From assembly GCF_001406815.1 (NCBI RefSeq), contig NZ_CVRR01000010.1, positions 1 through 64,000 on the forward strand: a DNA stretch of 64,000 nt, read 5' to 3'. Below, piece after piece: positions 1,261-62,566 of this stretch (its first letter is position 1; the number at the start of each line of letters is the position of its first letter). The position numbers and the translations under genes are program-made. The notes under the pieces are model-generated. The model was not told the origin of the DNA and made no database searches. It saw only the letters and a list, made by a program, of their open reading frames with translations. This stretch comes from Roseburia faecis (GTDB lineage: Bacteria; Bacillota; Clostridia; Lachnospirales; Lachnospiraceae).

Positions 1261-2253
1261 TCAACTTTTTACTAACACATCTCCAAGTTTTTTGTTTACA
1301 TTCAAATATGTATCTGAAATTTTTTTGCTTCCAAACGTAAAAATAGTTATTATCGTAACGCATAACGACAATAAGATTCCTACTTCGATATGACTGAACA
1401 AAAAATCAGCGGTCCAAATATAGTCAATAAATTTATACAAAATCTTTACTGAAAAAGCTGACGCTATGTAAATACACGCTGTCCTACTTCCGTAGACTGT
1501 ATACCATTTCTTCTCATTCGAAACTAAATTAACGATACAGAGAATGGCTACGATTCCTACCCCATAAGCAAACAAGCGTGTCACCACTCCCTGCAAGTTA
1601 TTCATACCAGATTCCTGATAACATTGAATATTTTCATATGCTTTAACCGGAATCATATTTTTGATGTGTAGCAGAATCACACTTATTGACAATATTACTG
1701 ACATAATTACAGAATAACGTTTCGGCATTTTTCGAACTTTCGCTATCGTTGCTTCATCAGCTAATACCCCTAACAAGAAGTATGGGAAAAATACAATTGT
1801 TCTAGAAATCGCCAAAAAACGATCCGCTTCATGAATTCCACCAACATATAAACCAAGTAAAATCGATAAAATAAATATTCCCTTTATTCGCTTTAAATCA
1901 TCAATCAGCAAGCGCCAAATCAACAAACTAAATAAATACCAAAAAATATATTTAGGTGTAAGAATATTAATAGCTAACGTTTTCTCAGTACATAACGCAA
2001 AAATGGTGTTAAATATAAAGTACGGTATTGCACAATTAATAATTGTTTTTCTCGCACCTTCGCCCCCCCGTCGTACACTTTTCGAAAAATAACCTGATAT
2101 GAATACGAATACCGGCATATGGAACGAATAAATCCATGCTCTAATGATCGCATAATTATGTTCCAAACTGATTTCTTCTAATGAATGTCCAAACACAACT
2201 AATACAATCAAAAGAAATTTCAAATTATCAAATAAATAATTTCGTTCTTTCAA
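1261..2253 (-). CDS. Membrane acyltransferase, family 3 (glycan O-acetylation)
   Basis: Integral-membrane acyltransferase of the Acyltransferase_3 type (330 aa), likely adding O-acetyl groups to the polysaccharide. The first residues (YLFDNLKFLLIVLVVFGHSL) carry the conserved histidine of the family within the first membrane helix; later features are FHMPVFVFISGYF near residue 45 and about ten hydrophobic segments. The start is a TTG at 2253, preceded by GGAAGTGAGAG; the next methionine (about residue 45) would remove the catalytic histidine, so TTG is preferred. The gene is AT-rich compared with the proximal part of the locus. Substrate and position of acetylation are unknown. A related gene in the same locus (6687-7695) is broken, so this copy may be the only functional one. 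Confidence 0.85.
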   Translation of the reverse strand: MKERNYLFDNLKFLLIVLVVFGHSLEEISLEHNYAIIRAWIYSFHMPVFVFISGYFSKSVRRGGEGARKTIINCAIPYFIFNTIFALCTEKTLAINILTPKYIFWYLFSLLIWRLLIDDLKRIKGIFILSILLGLYVGGIHEADRFLAISRTIVFFPYFLLGVLADEATIAKVRKMPKRYSVIMSVILSISVILLHIKNMIPVKAYENIQCYQESGMNNLQGVVTRLFAYGVGIVAILCIVNLVSNEKKWYTVYGSRTACIYIASAFSVKILYKFIDYIWTADFLFSHIEVGILLSLCVTIITIFTFGSKKISDTYLNVNKKLGDVLVKS

Positions 2254-48826: not shown

Positions 48827-49561
48827 TCAGGATTTATAACCGGGAATAATGATTTCCCGTGCATGTTCCACCTGCTCTTTGGTCGGCGGCTCCACATCTT
48901 CCAGTGCATAAGGAATCCCAAGTTCTTTCCATTTAAATACCCCCAGCGTGTGATATGGCAAAATTTCCACACGTTCCACGGTTTTTAACGTATCAATAAA
49001 TGCACGGAGCCTGTGTAACTGCCCATCATCATCGGTAATGCCCGGCACAAGTACGTGCCGAATCCACATCGCTTTACCGTGATCCGACAGACAGGTTGCC
49101 ATATCCAGAATATTTTTATTCGTCTGGCCTGTCAGTTGTTTATGCTCGTCCTCATCCATTTCCTTTATGTCGAGCATAAACAGATCCGTCACTTCCATCA
49201 GTTTTTCAAACTTAGAATAGAATGGTTTCTCACGGGTAAACGGGTTGCCCGCTGTATCCAGACAGGTATTGACACCTTTTTCCTTGGCAAGCGTAAACAA
49301 TTCTGTGACAAAATCAATCTGCAACAGTGCTTCTCCGCCACTTACGGTAATACCGCCCTTTTTGCCCCAGTATCTTTTATACCGCAGCGCCTGTTGCAAA
49401 ATTTCTTCTGCGCTTTTCATTTCCCCCTCAGTTTTTGCCCAGGTATCGGGATTATGGCAGTATTTGCAGCGCATATTGCAGCCCTTCAAAAAAATCAGAT
49501 AACGCACGCCCGGTCCGTCTGCGGAACCGAATGTCTCGATTGAATGTATATTTCCTAGCAT
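48827..49561 (-). CDS. pflA: Pyruvate formate-lyase activating enzyme
   Basis: Radical SAM glycyl-radical activase, 244 residues. FLKGCNMRCKYCHNPDTW carries the CxxxCxxC cluster ligands (about residues 29-36), GGITVSGGEALLQIDFV the SAM-binding GGE motif, and the C-terminal part ends with ILPYHTLGVFKWKELGI, the typical PFL-AE pattern. Installs the glycyl radical in PflB. It lies 198 nt after pflB, past a strong terminator, so it needs its own promoter; a TATAAT (49627-49632, minus strand) is available. Confidence 0.97.
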   Translation of the reverse strand: MLGNIHSIETFGSADGPGVRYLIFLKGCNMRCKYCHNPDTWAKTEGEMKSAEEILQQALRYKRYWGKKGGITVSGGEALLQIDFVTELFTLAKEKGVNTCLDTAGNPFTREKPFYSKFEKLMEVTDLFMLDIKEMDEDEHKQLTGQTNKNILDMATCLSDHGKAMWIRHVLVPGITDDDGQLHRLRAFIDTLKTVERVEILPYHTLGVFKWKELGIPYALEDVEPPTKEQVEHAREIIIPGYKS

Positions 49562-49758: not shown

Positions 49759-52011
49759 TTACATATGATCGTGGCAGGTACGTGCGATAACGTCCATCTG
49801 CTGCTCTTTGGTCAGATCAATGAACTTCACAGCGTAACCGGATACACGGATGGTGAAGTTTGCGTACTCTTCTTTCTCCGGATGCTCCATAGCGTCGATA
49901 AGCTTCTCCTTGCCAAACACGTTAACATTGAGGTGATGCGCACCCTGGTCAAAATATCCGTCCATAACGTTTACAAGGTTCTCAATACGCTCGCCTTCTT
50001 CATTTCCAAGTGCACCAGGGTTGATGGTCTGGGTATTGGAAATTCCGTCAAGTGCCCACTCATACGGGATCTTTGTCAGAGAGTTCAGGGAAGCAAGAAG
50101 TCCGCTCTTCTCTGCGCCGTAGCTTGGGTTAGCTCCCGGTGAAAGTGGCTCGCCAGCCTTACGTCCGTCTGGCATTGCTCCTGTAGCTTTACCATATACA
50201 ACGTTGGAAGTAATGGTAAGGATAGAAGTTGTAGGCTCAGAATCACGGTAAGTGTGATGCTTCTTTAACTTATCCATGAATGTCTGTAACAGCCATACTC
50301 CGATATCATCGGCACGGTCATCATCGTTACCGTATCTTGGGAAGTCTCCCTCGATCTCGAAGTCTTTTGCAATTCCGTTCTCGTCACGGATAACTTTAAC
50401 CTTTGCGTACTTAATTGCAGAAAGAGAATCGATTACGTGTGAAAATCCTGCAATACCGGTTGCGAACGTTCTCTTCAGATCAGTATCCATCAGAGAAAGT
50501 TCTGCTGCTTCATAGTAATATTTGTCATGCATATACTGGATCAGGTTTAAGGTATTTACATAAATATCTACTAACCAGTCCATCATCTTGTCGTACTTCT
50601 CCATAACTTCATCGTAATCAAGGTACTCAGATGTGATCGGCTTGTAATCCGGTCCGACCTGCTGGCCTGTCTTCTCATCCACACCACCGTTGATTGCGTA
50701 GAGGAGACACTTTGCAAGGTTTGCACGGGCACCGAAGAACTGCATCTCCTTACCTGTCTGTGTAGCAGATACACAGCAGCAGATGGCATAATCATCGCCC
50801 CATACCGGTTTCATAGCGTCATCGTTCTCGTACTGGATGGAACTTGTATCAATAGAGATACGTGCCGCATAATCCTTGAATGCTTCCGGAAGTCTGGAAG
50901 AATATAATACGGTAAGGTTTGGCTCCGGAGCCGGTCCCATGTTCTCTAAGGTGTGCAGGAAACGGAAGTCGGACTTTGTAACCATGGAACGTCCGTCTAC
51001 GCCTGTACCCGCAACGTCAAGTGTTGCCCAGACCGGATCACCTGAGAACAGCTGGTTGTAAGAAGGAATACGTGCGAATTTTACCATGCGAAGCTTCATG
51101 GTAAAGTGGTCAACCAATTCCTGTACTTCCTGCTCTGTGATGATGCCTTTCTTTAAGTCTCTCTCGAAGTAGATATCAAGGAAGGTGGAAACACGACCAA
51201 CGGACATTGCTGCACCGTTCTGTGTCTTGATTGCTGCAAGGTATCCGAAGTATAACCACTGTACGGCTTCCTTTGCGTTTGTTGCAGGTCTGGAAATATC
51301 GTATCCGTAGATCTCTGCAAGCTTCTTCATATCCTCTAAACACTTGATCTGCTCGGCGATCTCTTCTCTTAAACGGATCACATTGTCTGTCATCTCACCA
51401 CAGCCACAGTTTGCCTTATCTTTCTTCTTCTCCTCGATGAGGTGGTCGATACCGTATAAAGCAACACGGCGGTAATCACCAACAATACGTCCGCGTCCGT
51501 ATGTATCCGGCAGACCTGTTAAGATCTTATTGTGACGTACTTTCATCATCTCCGGTGTGTAAGCATCGAATACGGCTGTGTTGTGTGTCTTGTGATACTT
51601 GGTAAAGATCTCCTTTAATTGGTCACTTACCTGATATCCATATGTCTCACATGCCTGAACAGCCATCTTGATTCCACCGTAAGGCATGAATGCACGCTTT
51701 AACGGCTTGTCTGTCTGTAAACCTACAATTGTCTCTAAATCCTTTAAAGATTCATCAATATATCCCGGACCATAAGCTGTAATACCGGTTACAACCTCGG
51801 TCTCCATATCGAGGACTCCGCCCTTTGCGCGCTCTTGCTTCTGCAGTTTCTGCAGTGCTCCCCAAAGCTTATTGGTAGCCTCTGTAGGTTCTGCAAGGAA
51901 ATCCTCGTTACCATCATATGGTGTGTAGTTATCCTGAATGAACTGGCGGACATTAATCTCTTCTTTCCAAAGACGTCCTTCGAATCCATCCCACTCTTTC
52001 ATTTCTAACAT
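49759..52011 (-). CDS. pflB: Pyruvate formate-lyase (formate C-acetyltransferase)
   Basis: Glycyl-radical enzyme, 750 residues, converting pyruvate and CoA to acetyl-CoA and formate under anaerobic conditions. Active-site cysteines in [20 protein letters not shown] (about 415), glycyl radical site near the end in [20 protein letters not shown], and the PFL N-terminus [20 protein letters not shown]. Full length and intact. It is the main fermentative C1 source, and the ZTP riboswitch upstream fits: formate feeds 10-formyl-THF. ATG at 52011 after AAGGAGGATCACC. Confidence 0.98.
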
Positions 52012-52033
52012 GGTGATCCTCCTTCTCTTATTG

Positions 52034-52086
52034 GTTAGTATTCTCTAATCATTGATAGATTACACTAACGTTCATCATTTTGTCAA
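52034..52086 (-). promoter_or_regulatory. Proximal pflB promoter overlapping a 36-bp dyad
   Basis: Minus strand TTGACA (52081-52086), spacer 18, TAATCT (52057-52062). Across the -10 and start lies a dyad from 52034 to 52069 with arms matching GTTAGTNTNNTCTA and its reverse complement (GTTAGT 52034-52039, ACTAAC 52064-52069). This looks like an operator. It does not match the Rex consensus TTGTTAANNNNTTAACAA. The binding protein is unknown. Confidence 0.6.
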
Positions 52087-52151
52087 TACCCACGCATGTC
52101 TTTATTTTCATACAATATATTTACCAAAAACCGGAAAATATAAATGAACGC

Positions 52152-52190
52152 AAAAAACCGCCTGGGTTTTTTATCTTTTGCCCAGACGGT
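52152..52190 (-). terminator. Expression-platform terminator of the ZTP riboswitch
   Basis: Minus strand ACCGTCTGGG (52181-52190) and CCCAGGCGGT (52157-52166) pair with one mismatch (C/A position), loop of 14, then TTTTTT (52152-52157). Its 5' arm is the aptamer's own 3' conserved segment, so ligand binding would block the terminator and allow pflB expression. Confidence 0.9.
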
Positions 52191-52250
52191 ACGGCTCATG
52201 CCTTTGTTATACTTCACGTGGTGCTCCACATTATCCGTCAGTCATATAAC
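52179..52250 (-). ncRNA. ZTP/ZMP riboswitch (pfl motif) upstream of pflB
   Basis: Minus strand, 72 nt. P1: GTTATA (52245-52250) with TATAAC (52206-52211). The internal loop reads TGACTGACGGATAAT, matching the conserved GACUGRCG. P2: GTGG-AGCA-CCAC (52218-52229), followed by GTGAAG. P3: GGC-ATGA-GCC (52193-52202), then the hallmark 3' segment CCGTCTGGGCA (52179-52189; consensus CCGCCUGGGCA), which forms the P4 pseudoknot part. All elements occur in the right order and spacing. ZTP riboswitches sense 10-formyl-THF shortage and turn on folate, purine and pfl genes; the terminator placement predicts an ON switch for pflB. Confidence 0.92.
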
Positions 52251-52256
52251 AAGGTC

Positions 52257-52285
52257 ATTATAAGTCATATGATATTTTTTATCAA
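52257..52285 (-). promoter_or_regulatory. Promoter of the riboswitch transcript
   Basis: Minus strand TTGATA (52280-52285) and TATAAT (52257-52262), spacer 17 bp; the start would be at about 52250, the first base of the aptamer's P1. Confidence 0.85.
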
Positions 52286-52315
52286 GTAGTACTTTTGTCC
52301 CATTTTATGAAATAA

Positions 52316-52756
52316 CTACCATTCTTTCATACTGTTATAGTATCCGGTAATCGCACGGCTGTTTTTCCGCACCGCCTTTGCCTGTCTGTGAATTGTGGCA
52401 AACTTTTCACGCATCAGTTCTTTGTTGCGGGCTTCCTGCGCCTGAATCTTGACACTTTTGTCCGTTACCCGGCGAATGCACTGCTGCATGTCACGAATTT
52501 CCTTTGCATAATCTTCACGGTTCTGATCCAGTTCTTCTGCCACCTGTGCATAGAGCTTCTCAAAACCACTGTCCAGCTGGTTCAGCTGATCAATACACGC
52601 ACTTTTTGCCTCCACGGTTTCATCAAACACATCAAACGGGCATTCCGGATCCGTCAGGGTATCTTTCTGCCGGTCATCCAGGCGGATAATTTCATCCAGA
52701 ACCTGTTCCTTTTTTTTCAGGCTCTGCAGCATAATTGCAATATATGTATCTGGCAT
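52316..52756 (-). CDS. FliT-like flagellar chaperone (helical protein after fliS)
   Basis: 146-residue all-helical protein, mostly charged, encoded directly after fliS where fliT is normally found. In Firmicutes such proteins have little sequence conservation; helices LQSLKKKEQVLDEIIRLDDR and KSACIDQLNQLDSGFEKLYA are consistent with the FliT/FlgN chaperone fold. The longer frame (52840) overlaps fliS; ATG at 52756 is chosen because AGGAG lies six bases upstream. Likely chaperone of the FliD cap (inference). Confidence 0.65.
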   Translation of the reverse strand: MPDTYIAIMLQSLKKKEQVLDEIIRLDDRQKDTLTDPECPFDVFDETVEAKSACIDQLNQLDSGFEKLYAQVAEELDQNREDYAKEIRDMQQCIRRVTDKSVKIQAQEARNKELMREKFATIHRQAKAVRKNSRAITGYYNSMKEW

Positions 52757-52773: not shown

Positions 52774-53181
52774 TTACGCTACCGGTTCCTTTGTCTTGAT
52801 ATTGTTTCCGTTTGCGGTCTTTGCCATAACTTCTTTCCATGTATCCCGCATGGTACGGAGATGACCAAGCACTTCCTCTAAGATATCCTTGTCCTTTTTC
52901 ATGTTGGCCTCTAACAATCTCTGTAACAGATAGGTATAGACCGCATCAAAATCTTTGGCAACTGCATATTTGTGGTCGAGAGTTATCTGAAACTCCCGAA
53001 TGATATTCTCTGCCTTTCGGATATTGTTATGCGCCTTTTCAATATCGCCCTTTTCAATCGCTACAATCGCAATGTTTGTAAATTTAATAGCTCCCTCATA
53101 GAGTAACAGCGTCAGTTCTGCCGGTGTTGCCGTCTGGATCTTACTGTTGTTATACGCTGCATATGGATTTTTCTGAATCAT
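52774..53181 (-). CDS. fliS: Flagellar export chaperone FliS
   Basis: Flagellin chaperone, 135 residues. MIQKNPYAAYNNSKIQTATP is the exact FliS N-terminus (YAAYxxxxIxTAxP); then ELTLLLYEGAIKFTNIAIVA and YTYLLQRLLEANMKKDKDIL, the standard four-helix pattern. It starts 64 nt after fliD. Confidence 0.96.
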   Translation of the reverse strand: MIQKNPYAAYNNSKIQTATPAELTLLLYEGAIKFTNIAIVAIEKGDIEKAHNNIRKAENIIREFQITLDHKYAVAKDFDAVYTYLLQRLLEANMKKDKDILEEVLGHLRTMRDTWKEVMAKTANGNNIKTKEPVA

Positions 53182-62300: not shown

Positions 62301-62566
62301 CTCCGAGTAGCCGGGGTGGTAGCGGTACCTTGTACCAACAATCCGCTATAGTTGGGGTGATATCCCGCAGAGGGTCAGGGCGGTGGAGCTGCCCTTCGCA
62401 AGTGGCGTTGACGTCTGGGTCTTGCGCAATGGGAATTCGTGAACCGGGTCAGGGTAGGAATACAGCAGCCCTAAGCGAAAGCTCTCATGTGACGTGAGGG
62501 TGCCTGGGGGGAGTTAACTGCAAAGGTAACGTCTATTGTTTCTGATTCGAAGCGGGATACTCGGTT
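62301..62566 (+). ncRNA. ffs: Signal recognition particle RNA (large, Alu-domain form)
   Basis: About 266 nt. The ends pair: CCGAGTA (62303-62309) with TACTCGG (62558-62564). The S-domain has GTGAACCGGGTCAGG (about 62440-62455) followed by GGAATACAGCAGCCCTAAGC, the conserved loop region binding Ffh, and the 5' part has the Alu-domain motifs GGTGGT and GTTGGGGTGATA-like stretch. It is the Firmicute long form rather than the short 4.5S type. Confidence 0.95.

Follow-up and report, generated by a model that had tools for sequence, protein, structure and literature searches.

The ZTP riboswitches, whose history as a class is outlined in PMC7266159, include one in front of the pfl gene of Clostridium beijerinckii. 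In this riboswitch, an invader strand breaks up P3 and the pseudoknot as long as no ligand is present, and wobble pairs in the invader alter expression levels (PMC10085676). With respect to iron, a study on Roseburia intestinalis reports that low iron raises feoB 1.8-fold and PFL-activase 2.3-fold with pfo at 0.6-fold, and that high iron also raises feoB (3.8-fold) and PFL-activase (2.3-fold) (PMC4659462). In the open-access literature searched, we found no paper on a pflB riboswitch in Roseburia and none joining DtxR, feoB, pflB and a Clostridium binding motif. The locus analyzed here lies in a 64-kb stretch of Roseburia faecis DNA (64,000 nucleotides, hereafter the window) and is a further case of the known class, a predicted transcriptional ON-switch as in C. 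beijerinckii pfl, with which it shares the aptamer class, the kind of gene and a terminator-forming invader (PMC10085676). Compared from the text of that article, with sequences not aligned, the window differs in that its transcript is predicted to begin with P1 and in that its invader and the pseudoknot segment form a U-G wobble and enclose a loop of 14 nt. The window also carries a putative second, iron-type promoter downstream, a feature for which the comparison covers the window side only. We consider it probable that the riboswitch controls transcription elongation into pflB and that this downstream promoter bypasses it. The riboswitch is a clean and compact case of its class, and the useful part is its apparent pairing with an iron-type promoter.

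Comparison of the window with Rfam at gathering scores gave 2 matches, a ZMP-ZTP riboswitch and a bacterial large SRP RNA (62303–62564, plus strand, 179.1 bits). The first-pass annotation had called a ZTP riboswitch in front of pflB and had suggested a covariance search as a check. This search (cmscan) confirmed the call: RF01750 (ZMP-ZTP) scores 54.1 bits at 52255–52173 on the minus strand (gathering score 39, E = 5.3e-6), and the match covers model positions 1–86 of 86, that is, the full length. The segment is a ZTP riboswitch, real and ordinary in kind. Promoter, aptamer, terminator and pflB follow each other in that order on the minus strand, the aptamer lying 161 bases upstream of pflB, and the gene 3′ of the riboswitch, on the same strand as had been claimed, is of the one-carbon/purine kind (pflB, TIGR01255, 1160.1 bits, 52011–49759). 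The parts are listed below; the letters of every part were re-read from the sequence.

52257–52285, minus strand: distal promoter, −35 TTGATA at 52285–52280, 17-nt spacer, −10 TATAAT at 52262–52257 (11 of 12 consensus positions; genus register)
52250, minus strand: predicted transcription start, the G that opens the conserved P1 (fixed register; no covariation just outside)
52173–52255, minus strand: ZMP/ZTP riboswitch aptamer (RF01750, 54.1 bits, full length)
52244–52250, minus strand: P1 5′ strand GUUAUAU, partner 52212–52206 (Rfam alignment, fold, genus alignment)
52235–52239, minus strand: pseudoknot 5′ strand GACGG (covarying second pair in 63 loci)
52218–52229, minus strand: P2 hairpin GUGGAGCACCAC (Rfam match, fold)
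52206–52212, minus strand: P1 3′ strand GUAUAAC (Rfam alignment, fold, genus alignment)
52180–52195, minus strand: P3, GCC at 52195–52193 with GGC at 52182–52180 (Rfam alignment)
52185–52189, minus strand: pseudoknot 3′ strand CCGUC, common to the terminator 5′ arm (Rfam alignment, fold, 63-locus comparison)
52152–52190, minus strand: intrinsic terminator, arm 52190–52181, 14-nt loop, arm 52166–52157, U tract 52157–52152 (fold; 63-locus comparison)
49759–52011, minus strand: pflB, formate C-acetyltransferase, 750 aa (TIGR01255, cut-off 994.2 bits)
48827–49561, minus strand: pflA, PFL-activating enzyme, 244 aa (TIGR02493, 307.5 bits)

A terminator-like hairpin of 18 pairs (49681–49642, minus strand) separates pflB from pflA. 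Within the aptamer, GACGG in J1/2 is complementary to CCGUC in the P3 loop, and among 63 loci the second pair of this pseudoknot is A-U 54 times, G-C 8 times and G-U once, which is a compensatory change. The aptamer alone folds no better than shuffled sequences (z −0.78) because that fold cannot hold the pseudoknot. The anatomy of the riboswitch, its conservation and its covariation are seen in the sequences themselves; by analogy with its class, the predicted aptamer should bind ZMP/ZTP.

The terminator hairpin (52190–52157) folds with −16.5 kcal/mol (z −3.27), and none of 200 shuffled sequences folds as well. Folding of 52190–52149 placed the pseudoknot strand in the terminator 5′ arm, the arrangement of an ON-switch that had been described in the first-pass annotation: the arm, ACCGUCUGGG, includes the conserved CCGTCTGGG segment and the CCGUC strand. 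Because CCGUC is needed by both the pseudoknot and the terminator arm, aptamer and terminator are mutually exclusive. The invader CCCAGGCGG pairs with CCGUCUGGG with 1 U-G wobble. Of 63 loci, 57 have a predicted terminator over the pseudoknot strand, and the 6 without one under the rule used are L006, L009, L015, L044, L061 and L065 (L017, which has a differing anchor, was excluded from these counts and from those of the promoter gap given below). A separate terminator scan did not list the riboswitch terminator because that scan was limited to loops of 3–8 nt and this loop has 14 nt. On this anatomy, RNA polymerase would start at or near the first P1 base, 52250, and a shortage of 10-formyl-tetrahydrofolate would cause ZMP/ZTP to build up. 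Bound ligand would stabilize the docking of P1-P2 to P3 through the GACGG/CCGUC pseudoknot, and the docked aptamer would withhold CCGUCUGGG from CCCAGGCGG, so that no terminator would form and pflB would be transcribed. Without ligand, the terminator would form and the transcript would end near 52152. Such ligand-dependent switching is what the described members of the class lead us to expect at this predicted riboswitch, and binding of ZTP might thereby increase the supply of formate in this organism.

The distal promoter stands as first read (TTGATA/TATAAT), and position 52250 lies 7 nt past the last base of its −10 box. When 30 pflB-type loci of the genus were aligned on the first G of P1, 28 had TTG at −35 to −33 together with TANNAT at −12 to −7. 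In the larger set of 63 loci, 32 had a consensus promoter in the 75 bases that precede the aptamer anchor, against 11.4 expected in shuffled sequences, and in 17 of those 32 the gap from promoter to anchor was exactly 13 bases. The conserved P1 has 7 bp, and the window has 2 extra outer T-A pairs (52252–52251). We considered the resulting extension (52252–52251/52205–52204) as a conserved part of the aptamer and rejected it, as the outer pairs −1 to −4 of the 30 pflB-type loci are formed no more often than with shuffled partners (−1, 27 versus 26.2; −2, 12 versus 14.0; −3, 9 versus 8.3; −4, 13 versus 14.0). Pair −5 (7 versus 4.4, uncorrected P 0.023) was taken as chance. Since the promoter register is fixed to the first P1 base and the pairs outside it do not covary, the transcript is predicted to begin at 52250, and the earlier proposal, by which the RNA begins with the first base of P1, is supported for the pflB type. 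The rule is clean for this type only, because in 13 purine-type loci the pairs −2 (10 versus 7.9, P 0.10) and −3 (9 versus 6.0, P 0.08) are somewhat above shuffles. This analysis took 43 of the 46 genus loci (30 pflB-type, among them L062, whose fetched piece does not contain its gene, and 13 purine-type), leaving out 18 non-genus loci as well as L006, L009 and L015, which have another P1 and a promoter 18–19 nt from the anchor versus 13.

Riboswitches of this kind also occur elsewhere in the genus and order, with a match in 55 of the 98 genomes searched (the window's own included) and 64 tabulated hits, all of which were fetched; since the loci share descent, these counts are not of independent events. 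The gene downstream is pflB in 35 of the 64 by BLAST. Assigned by eye, the other 29 precede genes of the IMP cyclohydrolase type (16), purH (10), purE (1) and formate-THF ligase (1), and in 1 case (L062) the fetched piece contains no gene; 1 example of each of the 4 non-pflB gene kinds was confirmed by Pfam. Among 80 loci with a named PflB (80–94% identity over the best segment, the best being Roseburia porci), the riboswitch pattern stands no more than 800 bases upstream of the gene in at least 12, a lower bound in that several offer fewer than 800 upstream bases. Like 43 of the 46 genus loci, the window has P1 GTTATAT, and it shares P2, CCGTCTGGGC and the promoter register with most of them. 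In contrast to them, its Rfam alignment shows an additional U separating GCCG from ACCG, and its terminator stem therefore stops short of the P3 5′ arm, into which the stem extends in many relatives (by eye). The aptamers of L059, L062, L063 and L064 carry an insertion, often a stem (by eye), between GACGG and P2. The window's genome has a second ZTP riboswitch, which precedes an IMP cyclohydrolase gene and scores 35.6 bits, below gathering (L002, about 1415–1581, minus strand, G000:C59, Rfam match 52979–53059). About 100 extra bases forming 2 similar hairpins (by eye) lie between its P1 and P3.

The first-pass annotation had spoken of a full ON-switch architecture. Promoter, aptamer and terminator are indeed all present, but this description omitted a second candidate promoter with iron-type operators, located between the riboswitch terminator and pflB:

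52057–52086, minus strand: proximal promoter candidate, TTGACA at 52086–52081, 18-nt spacer, TAATCT at 52062–52057 (alignment with close relatives)
52054–52069, minus strand: iron-box-like operator GTTAGTGTAATCTATC over the proximal −10, 1 mismatch to GTTAG-N6-CTAAC (pattern match)
52034–52049, minus strand: second putative operator ATTAGAGAATACTAAC (box pattern)

The window's −10, TAATCT, matches 3 of 6 consensus positions, which is under the threshold of the promoter scans and was left unscored. At the equivalent place, the close relatives L036, L066 (Roseburia porci) and L067 have TTGACA-18-TATACT (L063 aligns without TTGACA), and TTGACA-17/18-TATA[GT]T stands in several pflB leaders that are more distant. 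Across the 35 ZTP-pflB leaders, promoters after the terminator exceed expectation at each stringency (11 or more of 12 consensus positions, 9 leaders versus 0.12 expected; 10 or more, 11 versus 1.0; 9 or more, 15 versus 5.3), and in 20 of the 35 nothing in this region reaches 9 of 12. The palindrome [AG]TTAG-N6-CTAA[CT] occurs in 12 of these leaders (the window's included), against 0.02 expected, and the exact box is absent from the remaining 23. With 1 mismatch, 52086–52054 matches TTGACA-N9-12-GTTAG-N6-CTAAC, the only such match in the window and one found in none of 100 shuffles. The exact pattern precedes pflB in 1 relative (L215, the same as L045). These patterns predict activity of a second promoter. 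In L060 and L064, a common repeat-like insert of about 100 bases separates the terminator from pflB (by eye) and occupies the place of the second promoter of other loci.

These observations bear on whether the riboswitch could be the sole gate of pflB, with expression set by ZTP alone. The completeness of the riboswitch parts and the weak proximal −10 of the window fit this reading, as do relatives with a short leader or without TTGACA after the terminator, such as L059 with just 69 nt from the pseudoknot segment to the ATG. Against it, the window and some of the relatives carry a candidate proximal promoter with iron-type boxes, and R. porci L066 shows no riboswitch pattern in the 643 upstream bases available and yet retains TTGACA-18-TATACT. 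We therefore regard a sole gate as unlikely; placing pflB under ZTP alone is probably an incomplete reading.

At the other extreme, the riboswitch could be marginal, with most pflB mRNA coming from the proximal promoter and the terminator mainly blocking read-through from the upstream gene. The ORF next upstream, which has 174 aa and follows fliS, ends at 52316, 30 nt before the −35 box, and no terminator between it and the riboswitch promoter was listed in a scan of 51950–52420 that took loops of 3–8 nt only. With the ORF so close and no terminator listed between, the riboswitch terminator may also end the upstream flagellar-cluster transcript. This arrangement is not general, because among the 35 pflB loci (1.5 kb fetched) only the window and L060 have a flagellar neighbour. 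A marginal riboswitch would also suit the R. porci locus and the fact that PFL is a main fermentation enzyme. The promoter register kept in 28 of 30 pflB-type loci and the covariation of the pseudoknot speak against it, since they make the switch itself appear to be under selection, and a marginal role seems doubtful to us.

To see what the box marks in the genus, we counted TTGACA-N9-12-GTTAG-N6-CTAAC in 60 genomes. There were 29 matches in the 36 genus genomes and none to the reversed pattern, and no match in the 24 non-genus genomes. By BLAST, the genes that follow the 29 matches are feoA (15), DUF3793 (3, in 1 case followed by flavodoxin) and pflB (1); by eye, they are ABC transporter (6), Fur-like (1) and another ORF (1), with none readable in 2. 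The 6 ABC transporter loci were assigned from their N-termini, and the BLAST reference, possibly in a wrong frame, matched none of them. A looser order with the box after the −10, TTGACA-N16-19-TATANT-N4-10-TTAG-N6-CTAA, gave 11 matches and none reversed, followed (by eye) by pflB (3), DUF3793 (4), ZIP (2), FecCD (1) and an ABC-type gene (1). Profile scans supported 1 example each of the DtxR-type, DUF3793, PTA, enolase, Nramp, ZIP, FecCD, FeoA, FeoB, Fur-family, ABC transporter, flavodoxin and binding protein families. The box with TTGACA is a feo promoter signature of the genus, on the evidence of these patterns. The feoAAB promoters and the window's candidate promoter are alike in having TTGACA and then a box of the GTTAG-N6-CTAAC type over the −10 box; the pflB box of the window differs in its mismatch and in the second box downstream. 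As TTGACA with the box precedes mostly feo and iron-type genes, and the window matches it with 1 mismatch, we infer that the proximal pflB promoter is probably part of the iron regulon. The bare box RTTAG-N6-CTAAY was rejected as a means of defining the regulon, its count being close to that of the reversed control and clean only with TTGACA: it gave 13 matches versus 11 reversed in the window's own genome, where it is not clearly enriched, and 136 versus 114 summed over 10 genomes, with large differences between genomes. ORFs of at least 200 aa contain 0 of 12 real sites versus 4 of 7 control sites (covering 12 of the 13 real sites, all but that of the window, and 7 of the 11 control sites).

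Instead of being a DNA operator, the GTTAG-N6-CTAAC element might work in the mRNA, as a 5′ hairpin. It starts about 7 nt after the −10 in several pflB leaders (e.g., L013), where the RNA could begin with it, and 52090–52012 folds weakly (−13.1 kcal/mol, z −1.40). At feo promoters, however, the element overlaps the −10 and hence is partly untranscribed, and its 6 inner bases vary, so that we hold an mRNA hairpin to be very improbable and take the element as a candidate operator. The likely best candidate for its repressor is a DtxR-type protein; a Fur-family protein, a kind also encoded in the genome, may act in its place. The window's genome (G000) has a single PF02742 match, and an ABC transporter gene is divergent from the DtxR-type gene. 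The box precedes the DtxR-type gene in G000 and not in G052 or G034, the 3 genomes looked at.

The reading that we favor, with some reserve, is that Roseburia-type pflB is a two-input gene, with a ZTP-gated distal promoter and a feo-type iron-box proximal promoter for which the riboswitch is bypassed; ZTP then probably controls only the distal of 2 transcripts. The proximal promoter, overlapped and trailed by iron-box operators, would yield the transcript that bypasses the riboswitch, and this transcript would probably be raised when iron is short, a condition in which PFL could replace the iron-rich pyruvate:ferredoxin oxidoreductase. If this is true, the increase of PFL-activase mRNA reported for iron-limited R. 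intestinalis would have a cis-acting route, pflB would be wired to both a folate-stress RNA sensor and an iron-starvation regulon, and iron availability, formate and butyrate fermentation would be linked in gut bacteria that form an abundant group. The low-iron changes of feoB, PFL-activase and pfo in R. intestinalis agree with this prediction. The rise of feoB and PFL-activase in high iron is not what a simple iron repressor would produce, and the PFL-activase target of the R. intestinalis qPCR may differ from the pflA beside pflB.

Boxes of the iron type were also observed elsewhere. In the window's genome, 2 of them (L147 and L148, G000:C5) lie 33 nt upstream of phosphotransacetylase and 129 nt upstream of enolase, and boxes stand before enolase again in G034 and G052 (L197 and L201). 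In addition to enolase, the bare box precedes feo genes in both of the latter genomes, and flavodoxin and a periplasmic binding protein in G034.
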